64,000 nucleotides of DNA from Zoogloea sp. 1C4 (GTDB taxonomy: Bacteria; Pseudomonadota; Gammaproteobacteria; Burkholderiales; Rhodocyclaceae), in contig NZ_SSXU01000009.1 of the NCBI RefSeq assembly GCF_009469605.1, forward strand, positions 62,001 to 126,000, read 5' to 3'. The notes beneath the pieces were generated by a model. The model saw only the letters and a list, made by a program, of their open reading frames with translations, searched no databases and was not told where the DNA came from. Each line of letters starts with the position of its first letter. The stretch's first letter is position 1. A program made the translations under genes and the position numbers. Positions 6,974 through 64,000 of this stretch are shown piece after piece.

Positions 6974-7435
6974 CTACTGGATGATGAAATTCGTGAACAG
7001 CGTGGTCTTCACCGGGCCGATGGCGGGCTGGCGATGGCCGCGCTTGTCGGTGTAGGCCGGGTTGCCGACGATGCCATTGATCGCGTCGCGGATCTCCTCG
7101 GCCAGGTCGCCGCGGGCCTTGGTCGTCTTCAGCTCGGCGCCGCTGTGGCCGGCCAGCAGCATCAGGATGTCGTTGCGCACCTGGGGCATGTAGGCGTTGA
7201 TCGCCGCCGCGCCCTTCGGGTCGTCCAGACGCAGGGTGATCGCCAGCTGCACAAAGCGGCTCGAACCGTCGGCGTCCGCGGCCAGGTTGGTGGTGATCGT
7301 CTCGAGGGTGACGAGGTCGGCGCCGCCCCCGCCACCGTGATCGTTGGCGAGCAGCGGCTGGGCAAGGCCCAGCCCGGCGATGAGGAGAAGCGGCGCACAG
7401 GCGGCGCGAAGGGGCTTGAACATGGCAGGGGCCAT
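6974..7435 (-). CDS. FliL-family (flagellar basal body-associated) secreted protein
   Basis: About 150 aa, with a probable Sec signal peptide (MFKPLRAACAPLLLIAGLGL, cut near ANDHGG). A C-terminal domain resembles FliL: an FVQLAITLRL strand, a region ending in LLAG, then AEEIRDAINGIV and the terminal VKTTLFTNFIIQ. FliL normally sits at the stator-basal body interface as an inner-membrane protein. Here a cleavable signal replaces the usual anchor and no flagellar genes are nearby, so this looks like an orphan periplasmic relative. Three starts are possible (GTG at 7489, ATG at 7435, ATG at 7423); the two ATGs both keep the signal peptide. Confidence 0.72.
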   Translation of the reverse strand: MAPAMFKPLRAACAPLLLIAGLGLAQPLLANDHGGGGGADLVTLETITTNLAADADGSSRFVQLAITLRLDDPKGAAAINAYMPQVRNDILMLLAGHSGAELKTTKARGDLAEEIRDAINGIVGNPAYTDKRGHRQPAIGPVKTTLFTNFIIQ

Positions 7436-54533: not shown

Positions 54534-56549
54534 ATGCGCGTGTTCCTGTGCGAGAAGCCCTCCCAGGGCAAGGACATCGCCCGTGTGCTGGGTGCCGTTC
54601 AACGCGGCAACGGCTGCTACAGCGGCGCGGGTGTCGTCGTGACCTGGTGCATCGGTCATCTGGTGGAGGCGGTTCCGCCCGAAGGCTACGGCGAGCAATA
54701 CAAGCGCTGGGCCATCGAGCAACTGCCCATTCTTCCTGAGCGTTGGCGTGTCGAGCCCAAGGCGGCGACCGCAGCGCAATTCAAGGTCGTGCAGCAGCTC
54801 GTCGCCAAGGCGGGCGAGCTGGTGATAGCGACCGACGCCGACCGCGAGGGCGAGATGATCGCCCGCGAGATCATCGACCTGTGCGGCTACCGCGGGCCGA
54901 TTCAGCGCCTGTGGCTGTCGGCGCTCAACGATGCGTCGATCCGCAAGGCGCTGGGCGCGCTCAAACCGTCCGCCGAGACGCTGCCGCTGTATTTCTCCGC
55001 ACTCGCCCGTTCGCGTGCCGACTGGCTGATCGGGATGAACCTGAGCCGCTTGTTCACCCTGCTGGGGCGCCAGGCCGGCTATACGGGCGTGCTGTCGGTG
55101 GGGCGCGTGCAGACGCCGACGCTGAAGTTGGTCGTGGATCGTGATCGCGAGATCGCGCGATTCGTCTCCATGCCGTATTGGGCCGTGGATGTGCTGCTAT
55201 CCCATGCCGGCCAATCCTTCACCGCGAGCTGGATACCGCCCGAAGGCAGCACGGATGCAGCGGGTCGCTGCCTTCAGCAGCCGGTGGCGCAGCAGGCTGC
55301 GGATCGCATTCGCGCGGCACGCGATGCGCAGGTCGTGTCGGTGGACACCGAGCGCGTGCGCGAGGCACCGCCGCTGCCGTTCGACCTGGGCACGCTGCAG
55401 GAGGTGTGCTCCAAGCAGTTGGGCCTCGACGTGCAGGAGACGCTGGACATTGCCCAGGCGCTGTACGAGACACACAAGGCGACAACGTATCCGCGCTCGG
55501 ATTCGGGCTACCTACCCGAGAGCATGCTGGCCGAGGTGCCGACCGTACTCGACAGCCTGGTCAAGACCGACCCCAGCCTGCGGCCGCTGATCGACCGCCT
55601 GGATCGCCAACAGCGCTCGGGTGCATGGAACGACGGCAAGGTGTCGGCTCACCACGGCATCATCCCGACGCTGGAGCCCGCCAACCTGTCGGCCATGAAC
55701 GAGAAGGAACTGGCCGTCTACCGGCTGATCCGCGCCCATTACCTCGCGCAGTTCCTCCCGCACCATGAGTTCGACCGGACGGTAGCGCAGTTCTCGTGCG
55801 GCAGTCAGTCGCTGGCGGCCGTGGGCAAGCAGATCGCCGTCACCGGCTGGCGTGAGGTGCTGGCGACGCCGGGGCCGGACGATGCCGATGGCGAGGATGC
55901 GCAGCGCAGCCAGGTGCTGCCCGCCCTGCATGCGGGCCTGTCCTGCCCGGTCGGAAAGGTGGATCTCAAGGCGCTGAAGACGCTGCCGCCCAAACCCTAC
56001 ACGCAGGGCGAGCTGATCAAGGCCATGAAGACCGTCGCCAAGTTCGTGACCGACCCGCGCCTGAAACAGAAGCTGCGAGATACCACCGGCATCGGCACCG
56101 AGGCGACACGCGCCAACATCATCAACGGTCTGATCGGTCGCGGCTACCTGGTCAAGAAAGGCCGCGCCGTCCGCGCTTCCGACGCGGCATTCACGCTCAT
56201 CGACGCGGTGCCCTCGGCCATCGCCGACCCCGGCACCACGGCGGTGTGGGAGCAGGCGCTCGACATGATCGAGGCCGGCCAGATGGCGCTGGACACCTTC
56301 ATCGAGAAGCAGTCCGTGTGGGTCGGCCAGCTCGTGCAGCAGTACCGCGGCGCAACGCTCTCGCTCAAGCTGCCGCCGGCGCCGGCCTGCCCGCAGTGCG
56401 GCGCACCGATGCAGCAGCGCACGGGCAAGAGCGGCGCGTTCTGGTCCTGCTCGCGCTACCCGGACTGCAAGGGCACGTTGCCGCTCGAGTCCCCGACGGG
56501 CCGGCGCAGCGCACCGCGCAAGCGGCGCGCTGCCTCCAAGGCGTCCTGA
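54534..56549 (+). CDS. topB: DNA topoisomerase III (ICE type)
   Basis: A 671-aa type IA topoisomerase. The Toprim domain shows FLCEKPSQGKDIARVLG with the catalytic Glu and ATDADREGEMIAREI with the acidic triad. The active-site Tyr319 lies in TTYPRSDSGYL. A zinc ribbon ends the protein (ACPQCGAPMQQ, then CSRYPDCKG), followed by a basic tail. It decatenates intermediates in ICE replication or transfer. It starts with GGAGG seven bases upstream. Confidence 0.95.
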   Translation: MRVFLCEKPSQGKDIARVLGAVQRGNGCYSGAGVVVTWCIGHLVEAVPPEGYGEQYKRWAIEQLPILPERWRVEPKAATAAQFKVVQQLVAKAGELVIATDADREGEMIAREIIDLCGYRGPIQRLWLSALNDASIRKALGALKPSAETLPLYFSALARSRADWLIGMNLSRLFTLLGRQAGYTGVLSVGRVQTPTLKLVVDRDREIARFVSMPYWAVDVLLSHAGQSFTASWIPPEGSTDAAGRCLQQPVAQQAADRIRAARDAQVVSVDTERVREAPPLPFDLGTLQEVCSKQLGLDVQETLDIAQALYETHKATTYPRSDSGYLPESMLAEVPTVLDSLVKTDPSLRPLIDRLDRQQRSGAWNDGKVSAHHGIIPTLEPANLSAMNEKELAVYRLIRAHYLAQFLPHHEFDRTVAQFSCGSQSLAAVGKQIAVTGWREVLATPGPDDADGEDAQRSQVLPALHAGLSCPVGKVDLKALKTLPPKPYTQGELIKAMKTVAKFVTDPRLKQKLRDTTGIGTEATRANIINGLIGRGYLVKKGRAVRASDAAFTLIDAVPSAIADPGTTAVWEQALDMIEAGQMALDTFIEKQSVWVGQLVQQYRGATLSLKLPPAPACPQCGAPMQQRTGKSGAFWSCSRYPDCKGTLPLESPTGRRSAPRKRRAASKAS

Positions 56550-57137
56550 TCCTCGCTTCCCCCTGCCGCGCCGGCCCTTCACTGGCGGCGAGGCAAACGT
56601 CCCGCACCGCGCGGGACTCCAAAGCGCGCGTCTCCTTCTGCAACGGTGTGCGCGCCCCGTCTGCCCACCATCGGGCGACGGGGCGAGAAGGTCATTGCTC
56701 CACGAATCGCGCCCGCCGCCATTCCCTTGATCGGTGTGCCTTGCCTCGGCCACGAGGGGCTTCCTGACGCCTTGCCGCCGCGCGAGCCGTGAGGAGGCCC
56801 CTTGGGCCGAGGGTATTCCGTGCCGGTGCCCGCCGGCGGAACAACGGGCTCCCTTTGTGTGTGGATGCACGCCAGAGGTTTCCGGCCCCAGCCACGAAAC
56901 GGGCCGGGTGCGATTGCTGACGCAGCGAACGGCTTTGACGACGGCCTGCGCTGACGCAGCCCACAGGTGGTTTTCCTTCCTCTCCAGCCGAAGGCCCGCG
57001 TGGCCTTCGGCGCCCTGGTCCTTGCCTTGTCCCGTGACGCGGGCCTGCCCTAAAGCGGGCCGTCCGCGATTCGGTTTTCCCTGCGACGGCAGCCATGCTT
57101 CGCGCCCATCCTCACGCCATGCGTTGCTGAAAGTCGT

Positions 57138-57203
57138 CAGCGGCATGCCCTGGCAGTCTCGGTCTTCAAGACTGCAACGCGGTTCGCCGCGTCGACCGAT
57201 CCA
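57138..57203 (+). repeat. Paralogous leader repeat, copy 1
   Basis: Begins CAGCGGCATGCCCTGGCAG and contains the stem GCAGTC/GACTGC around an 11-base loop. Related copies are at 59083-59143 and 60604-60672, each ahead of a gene that also has a hairpin. Copy 3 changes both arms together (GCAGCC/GGCTGC). Confidence 0.65.
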
Positions 57204-57272
57204 GTCCGCTTCGCATCGCCCACCGCGGACGCTCGCCGGCCTGGCGACGATGCACTTTTCTCAACCACCCGA

Positions 57273-57307
57273 GGGGAACCCCATCCCCTGCGGGATGCGT
57301 GCTCCCC
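57273..57307 (+). promoter_or_regulatory. Leader hairpin module H1
   Basis: An inner stem CATCCC-ctgc-GGGATG (57282-57297) sits inside an outer GGGGA/TCCCC pair (57273-57277, 57303-57307). The hairpin ends 23 bp before the ATG at 57331, which has AAGGAG. Confidence 0.6.
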
Positions 57308-57330
57308 GCCCCACCACCAAGGAGCACGGC

Positions 57331-57567
57331 ATGTCTGAACCTTCCGCATCTTCCTCTGCAACCGCAGTGCGCAGTGGTGCGCTGGCGCTGGCCTGGACCG
57401 GCAAGCGTCTGCCGCTACAGGTGCTGCGCAGCGCGGCCGGTCACTACATCGGCACGCAAGACGACGAAGGCCCGGTATCGCGGGAGTCCGTCGAGTATTT
57501 CCCGACCCACCTCGCAGCACAGCGCGCCCTGGATACCCATGCCTGGACACAGCGCGCTCACCCCTGA
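57331..57567 (+). CDS. Small ICE core protein (78 aa), unknown function
   Basis: A 78-aa protein I do not recognise. After a Ser/Ala-rich start it has the compact segment LALAWTGKRLPLQVLRSAAGHYIGTQDDEGPVSRESVEYF, which looks like a small beta-rich domain, and ends DTHAWTQRAHP. The AAGGAG binding site and hairpin leader support translation. It is followed 25 bp later by another small core gene. Confidence 0.7.
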   Translation: MSEPSASSSATAVRSGALALAWTGKRLPLQVLRSAAGHYIGTQDDEGPVSRESVEYFPTHLAAQRALDTHAWTQRAHP

Positions 57568-57592
57568 TTCCCACCCTTCAAGGAGTTCTCTC

Positions 57593-57985
57593 ATGAATCT
57601 GTCTTTACCCGAAGACGTGCTCGATCAGATGGCGCTGGAACAGGCGCACTTCGACGCTGCACCGCAGGCCTTCTTCGAGGCCTGGAAGCGCGGCGCGCAG
57701 ATCGCCGGCCACGAGTGGTTCGGCGACGGCACACGCGAAGGTCTGCAGCGTGCCACCACCAAGTGGGACCTGCGGCCCAACATGCTGATGCTCAACGACG
57801 CCCTGGGCGTGCTGAGCAGCGGTCAACGCATGTTCCTGTCCGCGATGGTGAGCTTCTACAACTCCCGCGAGGGCGGCGCGATGCTCAAGCGTTGCGGCTT
57901 CGAGGGGCTGTCCGACTTCGGCGGCCTCGATCTGGAACGGCGCCAGGTCATCGCTGACCTCACGCTGCACTACAACGGCTGGTGA
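57593..57985 (+). CDS. ICE core hypothetical protein (130 aa)
   Basis: A 130-aa conserved ICE protein of unknown role. Features: PEDVLDQMALEQAHFDAAPQAFFEAWKRGAQIAGHEWFGDG, a helical middle (MLMLNDALGVLSSGQRMFLSAMVSFYN) and the C-terminal GLDLERRQVIADLTLHYNGW. It is predicted helical and cytoplasmic with no catalytic motif. It begins with AAGGAG nine bases upstream and stands 25 bp after the 78-aa gene, probably co-transcribed. Confidence 0.78.
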   Translation: MNLSLPEDVLDQMALEQAHFDAAPQAFFEAWKRGAQIAGHEWFGDGTREGLQRATTKWDLRPNMLMLNDALGVLSSGQRMFLSAMVSFYNSREGGAMLKRCGFEGLSDFGGLDLERRQVIADLTLHYNGW

Positions 57986-58025
57986 GCCGCGCCTGGCAAC
58001 CCACCGTCCTTTCATCCCACCCCAC

Positions 58026-58061
58026 GAGGGACATGCGTCCCCGTTCGGGGCCATGTCCCTC
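58026..58061 (+). promoter_or_regulatory. Leader hairpin module H2
   Basis: A perfect 10-bp stem GAGGGACATG/CATGTCCCTC (58026-58035, 58052-58061) with an inner CCCC-gttc-GGGG. CTTCCTTTC and GCAGGAG follow, then the ATG of a tiny frame at 58083. Confidence 0.7.
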
Positions 58062-58082
58062 CTTCCTTTCGCAGGAGCGGCC

Positions 58083-58109
58083 ATGTTCCGAATCAGCATC
58101 TTCCACTGA
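58083..58109 (+). CDS. Possible 8-residue leader peptide (MFRISIFH)
   Basis: Nine codons from ATG at 58083 to TGA at 58109. What supports it is the context: the same hairpin, pyrimidine tract and GCAGGAG spacing found before real genes nearby precedes this ATG. It may be a leader peptide or the leftover start of a deleted gene. Evidence for translation is only this context. Confidence 0.25.
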   Translation: MFRISIFH

Positions 58110-58177
58110 CCTGCACCGCCCGCCACCAGGGCGGCCCGACACCGCTGCCGGCTGACCGGCTGCCACTTCATCCGCCC

Positions 58178-58197
58178 GCTGGGGTTCAATCCCCGGC
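58178..58197 (+). promoter_or_regulatory. Leader hairpin module H3
   Basis: GCTGGGG (58178-58184), a 6-base loop TTCAAT and CCCCGGC (58191-58197) with one G-T pair. CTGGAGG and the start codon at 58236 follow. Confidence 0.5.
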
Positions 58198-58235
58198 AGG
58201 GGATTGCCTCGGCCATCCTCTGCTGGAGGAATCCC

Positions 58236-58952
58236 ATGTCCCATTCCAACAACCCCTTCGTCCGCGGCTACGATGGCCTGTCCGTGCAACGGCTGCTCGC
58301 CATTTCCTACGACGACGACTGCCCGCTGAGCTATCTGCCGCTGCACGTCTCGCAGTCGCACCTGCCGGACAGCCAGGTCGAGCGCCATGCCTGCGTCTTC
58401 TGCGACGACTTCGCGCTGATCACGGAAGGCCAGAACGTGCCGCCCGAGCTGGACGCGCAGTGCCCCAGCCACGGCATCGCCCGAAACCTCGTCTACGCCG
58501 TCATGGCCGAAGAAGCCGGCCAGCCGCTGCACGTCGGCGATACCTACTCCGAGGAAGCCGCGCGCGAGGTGGTACGCCGCCTGCGCTTCGAGACCGGGTT
58601 CTACAGCCGTGCTTGGGAAATCAGTTCGGCGCACATCACCGAGGAGGCCGGCCGCTTCCTCGCCGAACTGGCGGACATCGCCACGCCGGGCGGTTTTTTG
58701 TTCGTGGCCTTCCGCATTCCCTACAGCCCGGCGGTCGGCGTGAAGCTGATCGCCACGCCCTGGACGGATGCGAACCTGCAGCATGTCGAGGGCATCACCG
58801 CCGAAGAGCTGCGGCAGGAGCACCGGGCCAAGGGCGTGCCGGAGTCCCTCGTGGAAGTGTTGCACCTGGCTGCGCTCGCTGACGTTCGCATGTTGGTGTT
58901 CGATGCCGACGCGCCCGTGCTGGACGGGCTGACGCTCTACGACGACGAGTAA
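58236..58952 (+). CDS. ICE core hypothetical protein (238 aa)
   Basis: A 238-aa conserved ICE protein that I cannot assign. It begins NPFVRGYDGLSVQRLLAISYDDDCPLSYLPLHVSQSHL, has a Cys pair in HACVFCDDFALITEGQ, and ends VRMLVFDADAPVLDGLTLYDDE. No signal peptide, although such proteins are sometimes labelled transporter-related in databases. The compact alpha/beta pattern suggests a cytoplasmic role. A hairpin and CTGGAGG precede it and a terminator follows. Confidence 0.75.
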   Translation: MSHSNNPFVRGYDGLSVQRLLAISYDDDCPLSYLPLHVSQSHLPDSQVERHACVFCDDFALITEGQNVPPELDAQCPSHGIARNLVYAVMAEEAGQPLHVGDTYSEEAAREVVRRLRFETGFYSRAWEISSAHITEEAGRFLAELADIATPGGFLFVAFRIPYSPAVGVKLIATPWTDANLQHVEGITAEELRQEHRAKGVPESLVEVLHLAALADVRMLVFDADAPVLDGLTLYDDE

Positions 58953-58966
58953 CCCGCAACCCATTC

Positions 58967-58995
58967 GAGCCCCCACGTCGGGGCTCTTCTTTTTC
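58967..58995 (+). terminator. Rho-independent terminator
   Basis: GAGCCCC-6-GGGGCTC (58967-58986) followed by TTCTTTTTC. It ends the transcript of the 238-aa gene and begins a 290-bp leader that is paralogous to the one at 60485-60816. Confidence 0.7.
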
Positions 58996-59082
58996 GCGGA
59001 ACGCGGTGCCGGCGCATTGCCGATTCCCAACGGACGGCCGCCGCCATGTGCCGCACGCTGGCCGCATGTTCGCTGGCGTTGC

Positions 59083-59143
59083 CGGCAGCATGCCCAGGCA
59101 GTCGAGACCTTCGAGACTGCGGCGCGGTTCGCCGTGCTGGTCG
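59083..59143 (+). repeat. Paralogous leader repeat, copy 2
   Basis: CAGCATGCCCAGGCAGTC, then an 11-base loop and GACTGCGGCGCGGTTCGCCG. It shares the stem GCAGTC/GACTGC with copy 1 but differs inside the loop. It sits 100-160 bp before the gene at 59243. Confidence 0.65.
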
Positions 59144-59185
59144 TTTCTTTCGCCGGACGCATACCGCGTCCATCCACCTCACCCT

Positions 59186-59221
59186 CAAGGGACCGCCTCC
59201 CTTGCGGGCGGGAGTCCCTTG
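59186..59221 (+). promoter_or_regulatory. Leader hairpin module H4
   Basis: CAAGGGAC (59186-59193) and GTCCCTTG (59214-59221) form a perfect 8-bp outer stem; CCGCC/GGCGG can pair inside. AAGGAG and the start at 59243 follow. Confidence 0.65.
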
Positions 59222-59242
59222 GTTGCCACAAGGAGTCTCCCC

Positions 59243-60040
59243 ATGGATACCCAAGCCATCCGCGCACAGATGCCGACGCTCGTTGTCGGTCATGTGCCTT
59301 CCAACGTCCGTTCGTTCAAGTTCAACATCTTCAACGGCCAGCCCAAGGTTTCGACGCTGGGCTTTCACATCGACCCGAAGCCTTTCGAGGGCAAGGTCAT
59401 CGCCACCACCGACGAGGCCATCGTCGTCAAGACGGGACGAGCCGAGTTCGCGGTGCTCGATCGAACGCTCGTGACCGAGGTGCCCGACGAGGGCGCCAAG
59501 GTGCAGGTCGAACCCTATGTCAGACGCCGCTTCGACGGTCAGCGGGCGGACACGCCCGAGGAGCAGACCGAGTTCACCGCCGACGGCCAGCCCTACACGG
59601 TGAAGCGGTTCGTGCTCGGGTCCGCACCGGCGAAGCTGCCGATCCCCGAGCCCCGCTGCCCCGAGCTGCAGGAACTGATCGACCAACTGGAGCAGTTGCC
59701 CGCTCCCGACGGCTTCCGTCGCATCACCCACATGCTGGTGGATGCCGGTGCGCGGGACATCACCTGGGTCGATCCGCTGCCCGCCGACATCATCCGCACG
59801 CCGCCGGCCATCGGCTTCACCGTCGCCACGATGAAGTTCCAGGGTCGCGTCACCGTGCTGTATGAGCGTGGCCCCGACCTCTACGCGGTGGAGCTGCACC
59901 GCGACGGAGAGCTGATCGAACGGGTCGATGAGGTGTTCTTCGACACCCTCGGCGAGACGCTGGAACGGCTGTTCGACGACGGGAGCTGGAGACGCATCCG
60001 CGTGCAGTGCCTGTCGGGTCGCAAGGCTGTCCGGCACTGA
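59243..60040 (+). CDS. ICE core hypothetical protein (265 aa)
   Basis: A 265-aa conserved ICE protein of unknown role. It begins MDTQAIRAQMPTLVVGHVPSNVRSFKFNIFNGQPKVST. The middle (GKVIATTDEAIVVKTGRAEFAVLDRTLV) is beta-rich and may form a small barrel; the C-terminus has a helical DEVFFDTLGETLERLFDDGSWRR. No catalytic motif seen. AAGGAG lies eight bases upstream, after a hairpin leader. The next gene is 66 bp downstream with its own hairpin. Confidence 0.78.
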   Translation: MDTQAIRAQMPTLVVGHVPSNVRSFKFNIFNGQPKVSTLGFHIDPKPFEGKVIATTDEAIVVKTGRAEFAVLDRTLVTEVPDEGAKVQVEPYVRRRFDGQRADTPEEQTEFTADGQPYTVKRFVLGSAPAKLPIPEPRCPELQELIDQLEQLPAPDGFRRITHMLVDAGARDITWVDPLPADIIRTPPAIGFTVATMKFQGRVTVLYERGPDLYAVELHRDGELIERVDEVFFDTLGETLERLFDDGSWRRIRVQCLSGRKAVRH

Positions 60041-60050
60041 CCTCCCAGCA

Positions 60051-60075
60051 GCTTCCCGCCCTCGCGGCGGGAAGC
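60051..60075 (+). promoter_or_regulatory. Leader hairpin module H5
   Basis: A perfect 10-bp stem GCTTCCCGCC/GGCGGGAAGC with a CTCGC loop, followed by CTCTCTTCCTGCC and CTGGAG before the start at 60107. The best-formed module of the series. Confidence 0.75.
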
Positions 60076-60106
60076 CTCTCTTCCTGCCTCCCTGGAGATC
60101 ACACCC

Positions 60107-60472
60107 ATGACTGTTCGATTCAAAGGCACGGAGCTGCGGCCCGTGCTCGCCGAAGCGGTGGCGAATCAATGCCACGTCATCCTGGTCAAGGATCAGGGCG
60201 TGTACTTCCTGGCCGAGCGCGGCGAGCGCCGGCCCGATGGTCGCCAGAAGACCATCGCCTACGCCGCCGGCTGCAACCCGGATGTCGATGCCTTCGACTA
60301 TTGGTGGGAGCTGGCGCGCGCCGAGTTCGGCGGCGATGACTTTGGCGAGTTCTTCGATCCGCAGGAGGGCGTGTTTGCGCGCATCCTGCACAGCGAGGAC
60401 GACCTCGACGTGTCCGCCACCGCGACACACCTGTCGCTGCAGGCGGCTCCTTCCACGCCCAGCGGTAACTGA
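60107..60472 (+). CDS. DUF3085 domain protein
   Basis: A 121-aa protein of the DUF3085 family: VRFKGTELRPVLAEAVANQCHVILVKDQGVYFLAERGE, then TIAYAAGCNPDVDAFDYWWELARAEFGGDDFGE. Common in ICE cores and of unknown function; acidic and probably cytoplasmic. Its start has GGAG ten bases upstream after a perfect hairpin. A terminator-like hairpin follows at 60485. Confidence 0.85.
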   Translation: MTVRFKGTELRPVLAEAVANQCHVILVKDQGVYFLAERGERRPDGRQKTIAYAAGCNPDVDAFDYWWELARAEFGGDDFGEFFDPQEGVFARILHSEDDLDVSATATHLSLQAAPSTPSGN

Positions 60473-60484
60473 CCGCCCATCCCT

Positions 60485-60513
60485 GGCCCCCGCTCAGGGG
60501 GCCTATTTCTTCC
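60485..60513 (+). terminator. Terminator-like hairpin after the DUF3085 gene
   Basis: GGCCCCC-gctca-GGGGGCC (60485-60503) followed by TATTTCTTCC. It starts the 344-bp leader of the next gene; the stretch to 60816 has no coding frame with support and contains leader repeat copy 3 and hairpin H6. Confidence 0.65.
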
Positions 60514-60603
60514 CGGCAATGCGGACAGCCGCGAGTGCCGATTGCCGCTCGCCTGCGCGCCGTCCCGGCGCCACGCTTCCGGCCATGTTCCGCTGACGTC
60601 CGT

Positions 60604-60672
60604 CAGCGACATGCCCAGGCAGCCACGATCTTCAAGGCTGCGACGCGGTTCCGACCGCGTCGATCACCCCAG
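60604..60672 (+). repeat. Paralogous leader repeat, copy 3
   Basis: CAGCGACATGCCCAGGCAGCC, an 11-base loop, then GGCTGCGACGCGG. Both arms of the stem differ from copies 1 and 2 by one base, and the changes keep the pairing (GCAGCC/GGCTGC). It precedes the DUF3577 gene. Confidence 0.65.
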
Positions 60673-60740
60673 TTCGCACCGGCATCCATGCGCGAACGGC
60701 CATCGGTTCTCGATGGCGATGCCACCAAGCTGTTCCATCA

Positions 60741-60777
60741 ACCCACGCGGGGGTTCCACACCTTCCCCGCCTTGGGT
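60741..60777 (+). promoter_or_regulatory. Leader hairpin module H6
   Basis: ACCCA-c-GCGGGG (60741-60752) pairs with CCCCGC-ct-TGGGT (60765-60777) around a 12-base loop. CAGGAG and the start at 60817 follow. Confidence 0.6.
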
Positions 60778-60816
60778 CGGGTGTGTCTCCGCCTCATTGT
60801 TCCCAGGAGATTCACC

Positions 60817-61359
60817 ATGACCACTTCCACCGAGAAGTCCTACTTCGATCTGCACATCACCGGCCTCGGGTATCTCAATCGCATCCGCGAAGTGAAGCCC
60901 AAGAAAGGCGATGCGTTCCTGGCCTGCGACATCGCGGCCCTGAACGGTCCCAGCGATGACGTCTCGTATGTGCGTTTCGACACGCGCGTATCGGGATCGG
61001 AAGCGCAGCACCTGGTGCGCCGCTGCATTCAGGCGGTCGACGCCGAGAAGAAGGTGATGATCGGGTTCCGCCTGGGCGACCTGTGGACCGACACCTTCAC
61101 CTACTCCAAGGGCAAGCGTGCCGGCGAGCAGGGGGTGAGCCTCAAGGCCCGCCTGCTGTTCGTCAGTTGGATCAAGGTCGACGGCCAGCTCGTCTACAAG
61201 GCCGAACCCAAGCCGACCGAGACCGACGAGCGGGACCCGGAAGTCCCTGTGACGTCCGACGCTCAGCAAGCCTCGGCACCGGAGCCTTCCAAGCCCGTCG
61301 CCGATGCTGCCGACGACGCTGCCGATGCCCCCGCATTGGCCGTTGCCGAGTCGTTCTGA
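60817..61359 (+). CDS. DUF3577 (STY4534 family) ICE protein
   Basis: A 180-aa protein of the STY4534/DUF3577 family: KSYFDLHITGLGYLNRIREVKPKKGDAFLACDIAAL, then RFDTRVSGSEAQHLVRRCIQAVDAEKKVMIGFRLGDLW. The N-terminal 125 residues form an OB-like beta domain; the C-terminal 50 are Pro/Ala/Asp-rich. Probably a single-strand DNA-binding or replication accessory by its fold and its company. CAGGAG lies nine bases before the start. Confidence 0.87.
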   Translation: MTTSTEKSYFDLHITGLGYLNRIREVKPKKGDAFLACDIAALNGPSDDVSYVRFDTRVSGSEAQHLVRRCIQAVDAEKKVMIGFRLGDLWTDTFTYSKGKRAGEQGVSLKARLLFVSWIKVDGQLVYKAEPKPTETDERDPEVPVTSDAQQASAPEPSKPVADAADDAADAPALAVAESF

Positions 61360-61363
61360 TCCG

Positions 61364-61387
61364 CAAGGCCCCATCCCCGGGGCCTTG
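61364..61387 (+). promoter_or_regulatory. Leader hairpin module H7
   Basis: A perfect 9-bp stem CAAGGCCCC/GGGGCCTTG with an ATCCCC loop, 4 bp after the DUF3577 stop. TCCTCTCTTCG and GCAGGAG lead to the start at 61415. Confidence 0.7.
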
Positions 61388-61414
61388 TCCTCTCTTCGTC
61401 CGCAGGAGACCTTC

Positions 61415-62026
61415 ATGATCACCATCCCCGGCCAACTGGCCATCAAGACCATCCACGGCAGGAACGGCGACTTCAACGTCGGCCGCCTGGCGACCTCGAT
61501 CGGCGAGTTCGTCGTGAAGAACGCCGAACTCGATCAGTACCGCGAGGGCAAGTACGACGGTGATTTCGTCATCGTCGAGATTCGCCCCTCCACGTACAAC
61601 GCCAACGGCCGCATGGTCATCGAGATCCGCGCCCATCTGGGCGGGATGACGCTGTCCAACATCGACGCCCTGAGCCGCGACGAAGCCCGCCGGCTGAGTC
61701 CGCAGGAAGTCGATCCAATCGACGAGGAAGCGCAGGCGCCCGCGCCGGCATCGCCCCCGGCCAAGCCGAAGGCGAAGCCGCGCAGTCCGCGCGATCCCCT
61801 GGTCGATACCACGCCGTTTGGCAGCGAACCGGCTCCCGTGTCCGCTGCGGCCTCGGCCGAGGCAGACGACGCGGCGCTGTTCGGTGCCTTGTGGCCCCTG
61901 GGCGAGACCGTGAAGCTCGATGCGACCGTGGATCGTCGTGTGCTGCGTCAGCAGCGCGACCGTCTCGACAAGCTCGGCTACGAGTTCGCTCCGTTGTCCC
62001 AGGACTGGCACCTCAAAGCTGCCTGA
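61415..62026 (+). CDS. DUF3275 family protein
   Basis: A 203-aa ICE protein of the DUF3275 family. ITIPGQLAIKTIHGRNGDFNVGRLATSIGEFVVKNAELDQYREGKYDG opens a beta-rich domain, a Pro/Ala/Lys linker covers about 105-145, and the C-terminus reads LFGALWPLGETVKLDATVDRRVLRQQRDRLDKLGYEF. Function unknown. The start has AGGAG eight bases upstream after a 9-bp hairpin. Confidence 0.86.
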   Translation: MITIPGQLAIKTIHGRNGDFNVGRLATSIGEFVVKNAELDQYREGKYDGDFVIVEIRPSTYNANGRMVIEIRAHLGGMTLSNIDALSRDEARRLSPQEVDPIDEEAQAPAPASPPAKPKAKPRSPRDPLVDTTPFGSEPAPVSAAASAEADDAALFGALWPLGETVKLDATVDRRVLRQQRDRLDKLGYEFAPLSQDWHLKAA

Positions 62027-62062
62027 TCCATCCGCCGCCTTGCGCGGCATTCCGCCACCCGC

Positions 62063-62077
62063 CGGGGTTCTCCCCCG
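62063..62077 (+). promoter_or_regulatory. Leader hairpin module H8
   Basis: CGGGG-ttctc-CCCCG, with an alternative CCCCG-ac-GGGG pairing overlapping it. TTTCTTC and AAGGAG lead to the start at 62116. It is the weakest stem of the series. Confidence 0.45.
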
Positions 62078-62115
62078 ACGGGGAGGGCTCCGGCCATTTC
62101 TTCAAGGAGACCTTC

Positions 62116-62481
62116 ATGGGCTGGACCTTCGTTCGTCAGACGCGCGATCAGTTGATCCGCGAGCTGATCGCTCCGCAGGCGTCCGAACGCGCTTGCTGCG
62201 AAGTCATCGACCACACGCTGGACGGCGACGTTCTGTGGACCGTGGTTCGCGTCACCGCCAAGCAAGCGGGCGTCATGGGCCTCGCGGCCGGTGAGTCCGT
62301 CTGCTACATCGGCTGCCATCTGCTGGAAAGCTCGGGCGGCGATTGGGGCTACAAGTCCCTCGATGAGTCCGTGCATCCGTACTACTACTCGTGCCCGCTG
62401 CGCTATCTCGACATGGCGCCGGTGCAAAGCCCCGAGTGGCGCGAGCGGGTTCACCGCTTCCACGCGGGCCGCGCTGTCTAG
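62116..62481 (+). CDS. DUF6927-type ICE hypothetical protein
   Basis: A 121-aa conserved ICE protein: MGWTFVRQTRDQLIRELIAP, then CCEVIDHTLDGDVLWTVVRV and SVCYIGCHLLESSGGDWGYKSLDESVHPYYYSCPLRYLDMAP. The Cys/Tyr-rich centre and short length fit a small alpha/beta protein; I assign the family from the GWTF start and this centre with moderate certainty. Function unknown. AAGGAG precedes it. Confidence 0.78.
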   Translation: MGWTFVRQTRDQLIRELIAPQASERACCEVIDHTLDGDVLWTVVRVTAKQAGVMGLAAGESVCYIGCHLLESSGGDWGYKSLDESVHPYYYSCPLRYLDMAPVQSPEWRERVHRFHAGRAV

Positions 62482-62506
62482 CGGCACGCATCTTCCTTCA
62501 CCCAAC

Positions 62507-62525
62507 CGGGGCGAGCACGGCCCCG
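62507..62525 (+). promoter_or_regulatory. Leader hairpin module H9
   Basis: CGGGGC (62507-62512), a 7-base loop and GCCCCG (62520-62525), a perfect 6-bp stem. GCTCCTTCATTTCC and AAGAGG lead to the start at 62566. Confidence 0.55.
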
Positions 62526-62565
62526 CGGGCTGTGGTTGCTCCTTCATTTCCAAGAGGACATCACC

Positions 62566-63216
62566 ATGCCTGCACCTTCTTCCGCGAAACCGCTGTACCG
62601 CATCGACGAATGCCCCGACCTCATGGCCGACGGTTGCGTCGGTGACGAGCAGGGCAATCTCGTCTTTCTCTCGATCTGGGCGCGCGACACCGCCGTTCAG
62701 GAGTTCCTTGCCCGCCTGACCCTCGGCCGGGATGAACAGGGGCTCGACCAGTTCCACGTCATCACCGAGCAGGGCGCATCCATCCCGGTCTTCGTCGGCA
62801 ACGTCGAGAACCTGGAAAAGCGCATCACCCGCGCCTATCGGCGAACGCTGTTCGGTTCGCTGACGAATGTGTGGCTGTTCGATCGTCGCTGCGTGAAGCC
62901 AGACAAGGCCAACGCCAGCGCGCTAGCGCTTCTGCCCAGGAATTCCGCTCACCGGCTCGACCGGCTGTGGACGCTGGTGCAGGACACCTGCCCGCTGCCA
63001 CTGCTCGACCACTGGCGCGACACCGTGCTGGAGCTGTTGCAGACACGGCGGATGCTGACCGGTCTTCCCTTGGCCCTCGGGCCGCTGGAAGGCCATCGGC
63101 TGGCCCTCGATGTTCCGGCGCTGACGAAGGCGTTGGGCGAGCTGATCCGCAACGGCACCCTCGGCACCACGCAGTACGAACTGGCCGCGAACGCACCGCT
63201 TCGGCGTGTGGCGTGA
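62566..63216 (+). CDS. ICE core hypothetical protein (216 aa)
   Basis: A 216-aa conserved ICE protein of unknown role. It begins YRIDECPDLMADGCVGDEQGNLVFLSIWARDTAVQEFL, has NVENLEKRITRAYRRTLFGSLTNVWLFDRR in the middle, and a helical C-terminal region (RLWTLVQDTCPLPLLDHWRDTVLELLQ). No catalytic motif is visible. It is followed by a hairpin and the methyltransferase gene. Confidence 0.78.
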   Translation: MPAPSSAKPLYRIDECPDLMADGCVGDEQGNLVFLSIWARDTAVQEFLARLTLGRDEQGLDQFHVITEQGASIPVFVGNVENLEKRITRAYRRTLFGSLTNVWLFDRRCVKPDKANASALALLPRNSAHRLDRLWTLVQDTCPLPLLDHWRDTVLELLQTRRMLTGLPLALGPLEGHRLALDVPALTKALGELIRNGTLGTTQYELAANAPLRRVA

Positions 63217-63226
63217 GCCATCCCCA

Positions 63227-63251
63227 CGGGCATGCGCGCCGCGCGTGCCCG
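63227..63251 (+). promoter_or_regulatory. Leader hairpin module H10
   Basis: CGGGCATGCGC pairs with GCGCGTGCCCG over 11 bp with one T-G pair and a GCC loop. CCTTCCCTCATCC and CAGGAG lead to the start at 63283. Confidence 0.7.
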
Positions 63252-63282
63252 CCTTCCCTCATCCATCACCAGGAGAAATCCA

Positions 63283-64000
63283 TGGCACTCATGTTTCCGC
63301 GCCTGGCGCGCAATTTCATTCGTAACGGCTACTTCCCCACCGACGAGCCGACGCTGGAGCGGGCCTTGTCCGCACTGGTGCCGTCTCCCGGCTCCATGTC
63401 CATCCTCGATCCCTGCGCCGGCGAAGGCGTGGCGATCGCCGAAGCCGCCCACGCCCTCGGGCGCGAGCAGGTCCAGGCCTTCGCCGTCGAGTACGACGCC
63501 GAGCGTGCCCGCCACGCACGGCAACTGGTCGATCGCTGCATCCACGGTGACCTGATGGACACGCTGATCTCGCGCCAGTCCTTCGGGCTGCTGTGGCTGA
63601 ACCCGCCGTATGGCGACCTGAGCAAGGACGTGAACGGCAACATCGGCTATCAGGGCCAGGGCCGTGCGCGGCTGGAAAAGCTGTTCTATCAGCGCGCGCT
63701 GCCGCTGCTGCAGTACGGTGGCGTGCTGATCTTCATCGTGCCGTCCTACGTGCTCGACGCCGAGCTGGTCGGATGGCTGACGCGCCACTTCGCCGACCTG
63801 CGCATCTACCGTGCGGTGGAAACGCAGTTCAAGCAGGTGGTGATCTTCGGTCGCAGGATTCGTCAGCGCGACCAGGCATCGGATTCGGTCAAGGCCACCC
63901 GCGGTCTGCTGCTGCAGATCGGACAGGGCGACGCCGAAGCCGAGGAGCTGCCGATCGAATGGCCGTTCCTGCCCTACACCGTCCCTGCCAGCCCGGCCGA
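63283..64000 (+). CDS. DUF6094/N6-adenine methyltransferase-like protein (partial)
   Basis: The first 239 residues of a class I SAM methyltransferase, cut by the window edge. SAM motif I is seen in MSILDPCAGEGVAIAEAAHALG and the amino-methyltransferase motif IV in LLWLNPPYGDLSKD; FAVEYDAERARHA supplies the acidic residue that binds SAM ribose. Such DUF6094 genes are standard in ICE cores and are thought to methylate element or host DNA. CAGGAG lies seven bases upstream after an 11-bp hairpin. Confidence 0.88.

Follow-up and report, generated by a model that had tools for sequence, protein, structure and literature searches.

Serial hairpin leaders and radC RNAs downstream of topB in a conjugative element of Zoogloea sp. 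1C4, and a candidate switch at the ribosome-binding site

Results and discussion

Layout of the region downstream of topB

The region described here lies downstream of topB in an integrative and conjugative element (ICE) of Zoogloea sp. 1C4, within a 64,000-nt stretch of contig NZ_SSXU01000009.1 (positions 62,001 to 126,000, forward strand) that is referred to below as the window. It carries ten genes, designated g1 to g10, and an eight-codon open reading frame (ORF). An earlier note on this DNA had described ten GC-rich hairpins in the region. All ten are present where it placed them, with their 3' ends 21-31 nt ahead of ten starts led by a Shine-Dalgarno sequence (SD). The claim that each hairpin precedes a gene start holds for nine genes but not for the hairpin at 58026, which serves the eight-codon ORF, and the description "nearly every gene after topB" likewise fits nine genes but not g2, which lacks a conserved leader hairpin.

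Three of the leaders belong to a known arrangement that was missed when the architecture was called undescribed. An Rfam search detected three plus-strand copies of the radC RNA (RF01754) in the window, all above the gathering cut-off of 40 bits, each directly 5' of a hairpin leader and its gene (g1, g4 and g6). The Rfam model ends 5' of the leader hairpin; the sole overlap is 30 nt at 59182-59211, and no other Rfam match covers the leader hairpins, which were not found to be part of RF01754. No radC RNA accompanies the hairpins of g3, g5, g7, g8, g9, g10 and the eight-codon ORF in this region, nor did these hairpins give an Rfam match at E <= 1. No family match was obtained for the leader element 3' of the radC RNAs in the stretches searched, and no Rfam riboswitch family matched within 56400-64000.

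Terminator-like sites at 58967 and 60485 precede the second and third radC RNAs, and the order of each unit is promoter-like box, radC RNA, hairpin, gene (Table 1). The box, at -56 to -30 from the radC RNA, is fixed in position in a reduced set of 67 upstream sequences, with A at -55 in 87%, G at -50 in 93% and T at -31 in 88% of them. It is likely to be a shared promoter or activator site; a promoter scan returned no sigma-70-like site.

Table 1. Features of the region downstream of topB (window coordinates; z, folding energy of the 56 nt ending just 5' of the SD relative to dinucleotide shuffles)
Feature	Position	Strand	Remarks
Promoter-like box 1	57052..57078	+	27 bp, -56 to -30 from radC RNA 1; position-fixed motif
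radC RNA 1 (RF01754)	57108..57253	+	115.1 bits
g1 leader element, block plan C1-G1-C2-G2-C3	57268..57307	+	z -2.0
g1	57331..57567	+	78 aa; no Pfam match
g2	57593..57985	+	130 aa; no Pfam match; internal control, no conserved leader hairpin
Plain hairpin ahead of eight-codon ORF	58026..58061	+	z -5.4; recurs in related elements
Eight-codon ORF MFRISIFH	58083..58109	+	SD present
g3 leader element, block plan	58175..58213	+	z -2.2
g3, DUF5983 protein	58236..58952	+	
Terminator-like site 3' of g3	58967..58986	+	
Promoter-like box 2	58999..59025	+	
radC RNA 2 (RF01754)	59055..59211	+	98.9 bits; 3' end overlaps g4 leader
g4 leader element, block plan	59182..59221	+	z -1.7
g4	59243..60040	+	Weak KfrB match, below cut-off
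Plain hairpin ahead of g5	60050..60075	+	z -3.0
g5, DUF3085 protein	60107..60472	+	
Terminator-like site 3' of g5	60485..60503	+	
Promoter-like box 3	60518..60544	+	
radC RNA 3 (RF01754)	60574..60722	+	130.4 bits
g6 leader element, block plan	60741..60792	+	z -3.6; nearly invariant among relatives
g6, DUF3577, STY4534 family ICE replication protein	60817..61359	+	
Plain hairpin ahead of g7	61363..61388	+	z -3.1
g7, DUF3275 protein	61415..62026	+	
g8 leader element, block plan	62058..62094	+	z -4.0
g8	62116..62481	+	No Pfam match
g9 leader element, block plan	62501..62542	+	z -3.8; helix with the ribosome-binding site unsupported
g9	62566..63216	+	No Pfam match
Plain hairpin ahead of g10	63227..63251	+	z -3.8
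g10	63282..64000	+	Weak methyltransferase-like matches; continues past the window

Hairpin strength and the two classes of leader

The ten leaders fold more stably than their dinucleotide shuffles, with z from -1.7 to -5.4 (Table 1), and shuffled spacers did not give equally strong stems. The 35 crudely called genes that served as controls, taken from elsewhere in the window, had a mean z of -0.25 (sd 0.92), and one of them reached z <= -2; the difference between the ten leaders and these controls is significant (Mann-Whitney p = 2e-6). When 85-nt windows including the ribosome-binding site (RBS) were folded, z was <= -2.1 in eight of the ten leaders and near -1.4 in g3 and g5. The region upstream of g2 gave z 0.0 in the 85-nt frame with the RBS and -1.5 in the 56-nt frame. 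The hairpins are real. The pattern extends beyond the window: a 757-aa ORF at window coordinate 64930 (locus L011, on the same contig) has a leader with the blocks CACCC-GGGG-CCCC-GGGGG and z -3.9.

The stem sequences had been described as unrelated, a view that does not hold for six of them. The leaders of g1, g3, g4, g6, g8 and g9 share a common block plan, C1 (CCC), G1 (GGGG), C2 (CCCC), G2 (GGG) and C3 (CTCC), followed by a pyrimidine linker and the SD. The consensus of 46 hairpins from these six genes reads CACCC, n, GGGG, variable, CCCC, loop, GGG, variable, CTCC, pyrimidine linker, SD. The four others, ahead of the eight-codon ORF, g5, g7 and g10, are plain hairpins. The single repeated architecture proposed earlier thus survives as a conserved series of structured leaders but falls into these two classes. 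A covariance model (R1) built from the g3 and g8 hairpins was dropped: with the register varying from gene to gene, it retained no more than 6 base pairs.

radC RNAs in other elements

Eight radC RNAs are present in the 1C4 genome: the three described above, four on contig C64 and one on contig C72. RF01754 was found above its cut-off in 6 of 398 genomes of a phylum sample and in 6 of 200 genomes of an order sample, the 1C4 genome being in both. A radC model built for this analysis gave 218 matches in 85 sources; L011 is counted beside the window in these matches and in the homologue leader sets below. Downstream starts were surveyed in a reduced set of 47 of the 85 sources, where an SD-led ORF start lies 26-113 nt (median 74) 3' of the radC RNA in 120 of 120 matches, some starts being miscalled (in at least four, L049, L062:2744, L080 and L082, the called GTG is inside the hairpin and the g1 start slightly downstream). 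A regular expression for the block order fits 52 of 88 distinct post-radC stretches; many of the misses are stretches cut 15 nt ahead of the radC end. A genuine exception is L092:2495-2635, in which the next start is that of g2, without the plan. New radC-linked leaders precede other genes, which include one with a RadC domain, three diverged DUF3577 genes and a DUF3275 gene; identical leaders were counted once in this set, and four nhmmer matches without a called start (the second matches of L118 and L122, and those of L096 and L100) were left out.

In several relatives (L055, L059, L060, L071, L072, L074 and others) a separate radC RNA stands directly before the g9 homologue. The window g9 keeps the hairpin without a radC RNA, so the two parts look modular. 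Contig C64 holds a second, diverged copy of the gene run, together with its four radC RNAs. This copy, in L009 (G000:C64:318001-334000), has extra genes, and its g6 homologue seems, by eye, to contain two DUF3577-like repeats; at ~7029-7090 on the minus strand of L009, the hairpin ahead of the DUF3085 gene is followed closely by the SD, has a long run of T at its end and resembles a strong intrinsic terminator.

Conservation and covariation

Related elements were collected by a search with the g9 protein, and 80 loci of 261 relatives were kept. Homologous leaders came from 53-83 sequences per gene, 29-61 of them distinct. L044 and L052 were left out of the RNAalifold analysis, the L044 g9 leader out of the later swap tests, and leaders with a weak SD or short upstream sequence out of the permutation and scan sets. 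RNAalifold gave 77-98% paired alignment cells, depending on the gene. Two-sided changes were present at 8 pairs in g5, 7 in g8, 6 each in g1 and g7, 5 in g10, 3 in g4 and 1 each in g3 and g9; the almost invariant g6 leader had none. In a scan of paired 14-nt windows the hairpin arms rank top in g5, g8, g9 and g10 and third in g3, and the pairing of the 3' arm with the RBS ranks top in g1 (of 231) and g4 (of 136). For g7, 28 pairs were testable and none went beyond z -2.1. Hairpins are present, with covariation, before the homologous genes of related elements. The plain hairpin ahead of the eight-codon ORF recurs in related elements as well. The ORF itself has a strong SD, and near-identical eight-codon ORFs occur in many of these elements; L073, L080, L082, L090 and L092 have an ORF of 134-154 aa at that place, so the eight-codon ORF may be a trimmed gene start or a leader peptide. 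The earlier observation that hairpin leaders exist is confirmed, and they are conserved; the interpretation given with it is supported in part.

Two competing helices in the block-plan leaders

In the block-plan leaders the C3 region, or 3' arm, is complementary both to the 5' arm, giving a long hairpin that leaves the SD free, and to its own SD and spacer, giving a helix that covers the SD. In a first screen of RBS duplexes, shuffle fractions were low for the majority of g3, g4, g6 and g8 leaders, varied in g1 and g9, and were not low in g2, g5, g7 or g10; the cross-gene rank was weak (0.25-0.54 in the six block-plan leaders). Both helices were then scored by within-gene permutation over distinct homologues. 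The pairing of 5' arm with 3' arm was supported in g1 (p = 0.0002), g3 (p = 0.004), g8 and g9 (0/5000 each), and that of 3' arm with RBS in g1 (p = 0.003), g3 (p = 0.001), g4 (p = 0.004) and g8 (p = 0.004). Two mutually exclusive helices, one covering the SD, are thus found for the class overall and, within single genes, in g1, g3 and g8; g4 supports the RBS helix alone and g9 the hairpin alone.

The pairings are also specific to their leaders. When partners were swapped between 16 leader types (72 leaders), none of 3000 swaps reached the cognate value, either for G1 with the 3' arm or for the 3' arm with the RBS. Ten types from other genomes alone (13 leaders), inspected by eye before testing and so not blind, gave 22/2000 for G1, 1/2000 for the whole 5' arm and 5/2000 for the RBS. 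Controls with one partner backwards, with the 5' flank and with G1 against the RBS were null; a swap test of G1 against C2 was not used, being biased by the choice of the hairpin by energy. RNAalifold, unprompted, returned the 5' hairpin with the RBS helix (the closed fold) for g4, g6 and g9 and the long hairpin for g1 and g8. Of 60 leaders, 52 form the more stable helix between 5' and 3' arms on the coding strand.

Predicted opening of the RBS and a candidate switch

The SD is predicted to be paired in all ensemble samples of the window g1, g4 and g6 leaders and in 77-80% of those of g3, g8 and g9. Freeing the SD and spacer is predicted to cost 7-9 kcal/mol in g1, g3, g4 and g6, 1.1 in g8 and 2.7 in g9; the mean is 8.3 kcal/mol for the new radC leaders, and the cost is low in g5, g7, g8, g9 and g10 (2.9-4.6 on average). 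The best fold with the SD open is the long hairpin in window g4, g6, g8 and g9. Taken together, the opening costs and the pattern of SD pairing lead us to read the leaders of unit-first genes as putative switches resting closed and the internal ones as, for the most part, probable insulators.

In the proposed mechanism, the region after topB would consist of RNA-led units, each beginning with a promoter-like box and a ~150-nt radC RNA that serves as the 5' leader, followed by the hairpin element, the SD and the gene. In the closed state, C1-G1 and C2-G2 would form a 5' hairpin, and C3 together with the bases just 5' of it would lie on the SD and spacer, hiding the RBS. In the open state, G1 would pair with C3 around an inner C2-G2 stem as one long hairpin, and the SD and linker would be free. 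The closed state would be the resting one at g1, g3, g4 and g6, and the open state may form on the nascent RNA or with a helper, such as a protein or the radC RNA. The plain hairpins (eight-codon ORF, g5, g7, g10) and the g8 and g9 leaders more likely provide cistron insulation or weak attenuation; g8 and g9 are placed in this group because their predicted opening cost is low. Whether the region is correctly described by this combination, in which the first gene of a unit has an RBS-covering leader with two exclusive folds and the other hairpins are simpler insulators or attenuators, is in our judgement evenly balanced. From the folds and the complementarity we infer that the cell uses both states for translational control.

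A number of results weigh against this proposal. The closed fold lies ~9 kcal/mol below the open one in g4 and g6, so that a helper or kinetic trapping must be assumed. In window g1 and g3 and in most of the outgroup leaders folded, the most favourable structure with a free SD is one other than the long hairpin. Homologues of g1, g3, g4 and g6 are predicted to need 8.0-8.9 kcal/mol on average to open the RBS, and 35 ordinary genes folded in the same frame need 6.1; once coding sequence is included, window g3, g4 and g6 exceed only 20-23 of the 35 controls. The long hairpin has no covariation support in g4 (p 0.90) or g6 (p 0.70), and the RBS helix none in g9 (p 0.83) or in g6 (p 0.49), where the leaders are too invariant; for g3, RNAalifold gave another SD-pairing fold, neither closed nor the long hairpin. 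The 16 swapped types are not all separate families, three of the outgroup types being DUF3577 genes like g6, and the RBS swap was not significant (488/3000) across g3, g8 and g9, the types that lack a radC RNA in this region. With the SD core excluded the signal is weak (88/2000; controls 163 and 399), and the RBS helix shows no preference for the coding strand (25 of 60 better, 34 worse). The covariation tests ignore relatedness, which widens the scan z (sd 1.1-1.8); the hairpin-free g2 itself yields a pair at z -3.9 and shows 5 two-sided changes, so that this count alone is no proof. General mimicry of the RBS by the 5' arm was rejected, as 216 of 2000 gene-label swaps reach it and it is strong in g3 only.

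Alternative explanations

The hairpins could instead be static, shielding each cistron from exonucleases or upstream ribosomes as insulator, standby or protective structures and keeping the pyrimidine linker and SD open for the 30S subunit, in which case the match between 3' arm and RBS would be a by-product of C-rich arms facing G-rich SDs. Such an account would explain why a hairpin is found in all ten leaders and RBS complementarity in the block-plan class only, and it agrees with the low opening costs in g5 and g7 to g10. The median hairpin end lies 16-30 nt 5' of the start codon in the nine hairpin-led genes, close to the upstream edge of the 30S footprint. The swap test speaks against a by-product, since cognate RBS pairing beats swapped RBSs that all bear an SD, with null backward controls, as does the unprompted closed fold in g4, g6 and g9. 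As an explanation of the whole series we consider static hairpins possible, if on balance doubtful. Partial terminators or attenuators, in which a long hairpin with a pyrimidine or T tract ends a share of transcripts and so sets expression steps, had also been suggested, and the T runs fit this in part of the leaders of g5 to g9: at least 5 T occur in the 8 nt past the stem in 30/37 g8, 33/56 g9, 24/33 g6, 18/41 g7 and 9/31 g5 leaders, and a terminator scan flags the g8 hairpin and part of the 58026 hairpin. Such runs are rare, however, in g1 (1/34), g3 (2/29), g10 (2/44) and g4 (5/27), many of the tracts are mixed C and T, and two units are ended by separate terminator-like sites, all of which makes termination improbable as the general function.

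The structures might finally act at the DNA level, as cruciforms, protein-binding sites or single-stranded DNA structures used during entry into the recipient. The genes belong to a conjugative element, radC-type motifs occur near DNA-handling genes, and inverted repeats fold in either strand. An Frpo-like promoter, for example, arises where single-stranded DNA of the leading region folds; the coding-strand preference of the arm helix noted above speaks for RNA instead, and in the searched sequences radC RNAs and hairpins stand in sense orientation directly 5' of starts. Strand energies taken over whole folding windows were set aside as uninformative, since the hairpin-free g2 favours the minus strand too. 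We regard a DNA-level role as very improbable.

Relation to known systems and implications for ICEs

RBS-sequestering switches and attenuators, such as riboswitch expression platforms and erm- or cat-type leaders, have two exclusive helices that share a strand, one of which hides the SD. The leaders described here resemble them in having two exclusive predicted helices on one strand, with the SD hidden or freed, but differ in that no ligand domain was identified, no leader peptide lies within the switch leaders, and copies occur serially on many cistrons. The radC RNA motif is listed as a candidate structured RNA in Weinberg et al. 2010 (PMC2864571), and PMC7657543 places it among families that were given a proposed structure with greater covariation support. 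No function for it was found in the literature searched. Full-length copies precede the g1, g4 and g6 leaders, and one outgroup copy precedes a RadC-domain gene; the known model, in contrast, stops 5' of the leader hairpin, and the seven other hairpins of the window have no radC RNA. The STAXI motif (RF01728; PMC2864571) is likewise structured and near genes for DNA-handling and antirestriction proteins, but consists of repeated pseudoknots; it had no match here in the Rfam search.

For ICEclc, PMC9286271 reports a 27-bp motif common to eight transfer-competence promoters. The conserved box of ~27 bp 5' of the radC RNAs may be the same motif. The same study notes that RNA coverage and reporter output disagree at ORF81655, and its authors suspect post-transcriptional control on comparing this ORF with intB13; from gene spacing alone, ORF81655 would correspond to g6. 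Cleavage of mRNA has been suspected in the ICEclc core (PMC2892462). Neither hairpin nor terminator occurs as a term in PMC7423338 or PMC13098234, and motif, leader and untranslated are likewise absent from one or the other. A literature search found no description of these leaders, most subscription papers being outside its reach. The radC RNA was already known; the leader element that follows it is new, as far as the Rfam and literature searches go.

Conserved hairpins before nearly every gene, with two alternative folds in the main class, suggest that the element controls a set of its genes through one shared kind of RNA switch. A wider proposal, which we offer as speculative and rather unlikely, is that conjugative elements of a widespread family place much of their regulon under a modular radC RNA and C1-G1-C2-G2-C3 switch. 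This switch would be re-tuned to the RBS of each gene and would respond to a shared signal or RNA-binding factor, and many unrelated proteins would thereby be switched together at translation. If the switch is true, the orphan radC RNA would gain a concrete output, the translation of the next gene, and a translational layer would be added to the control of ICEclc-type elements.

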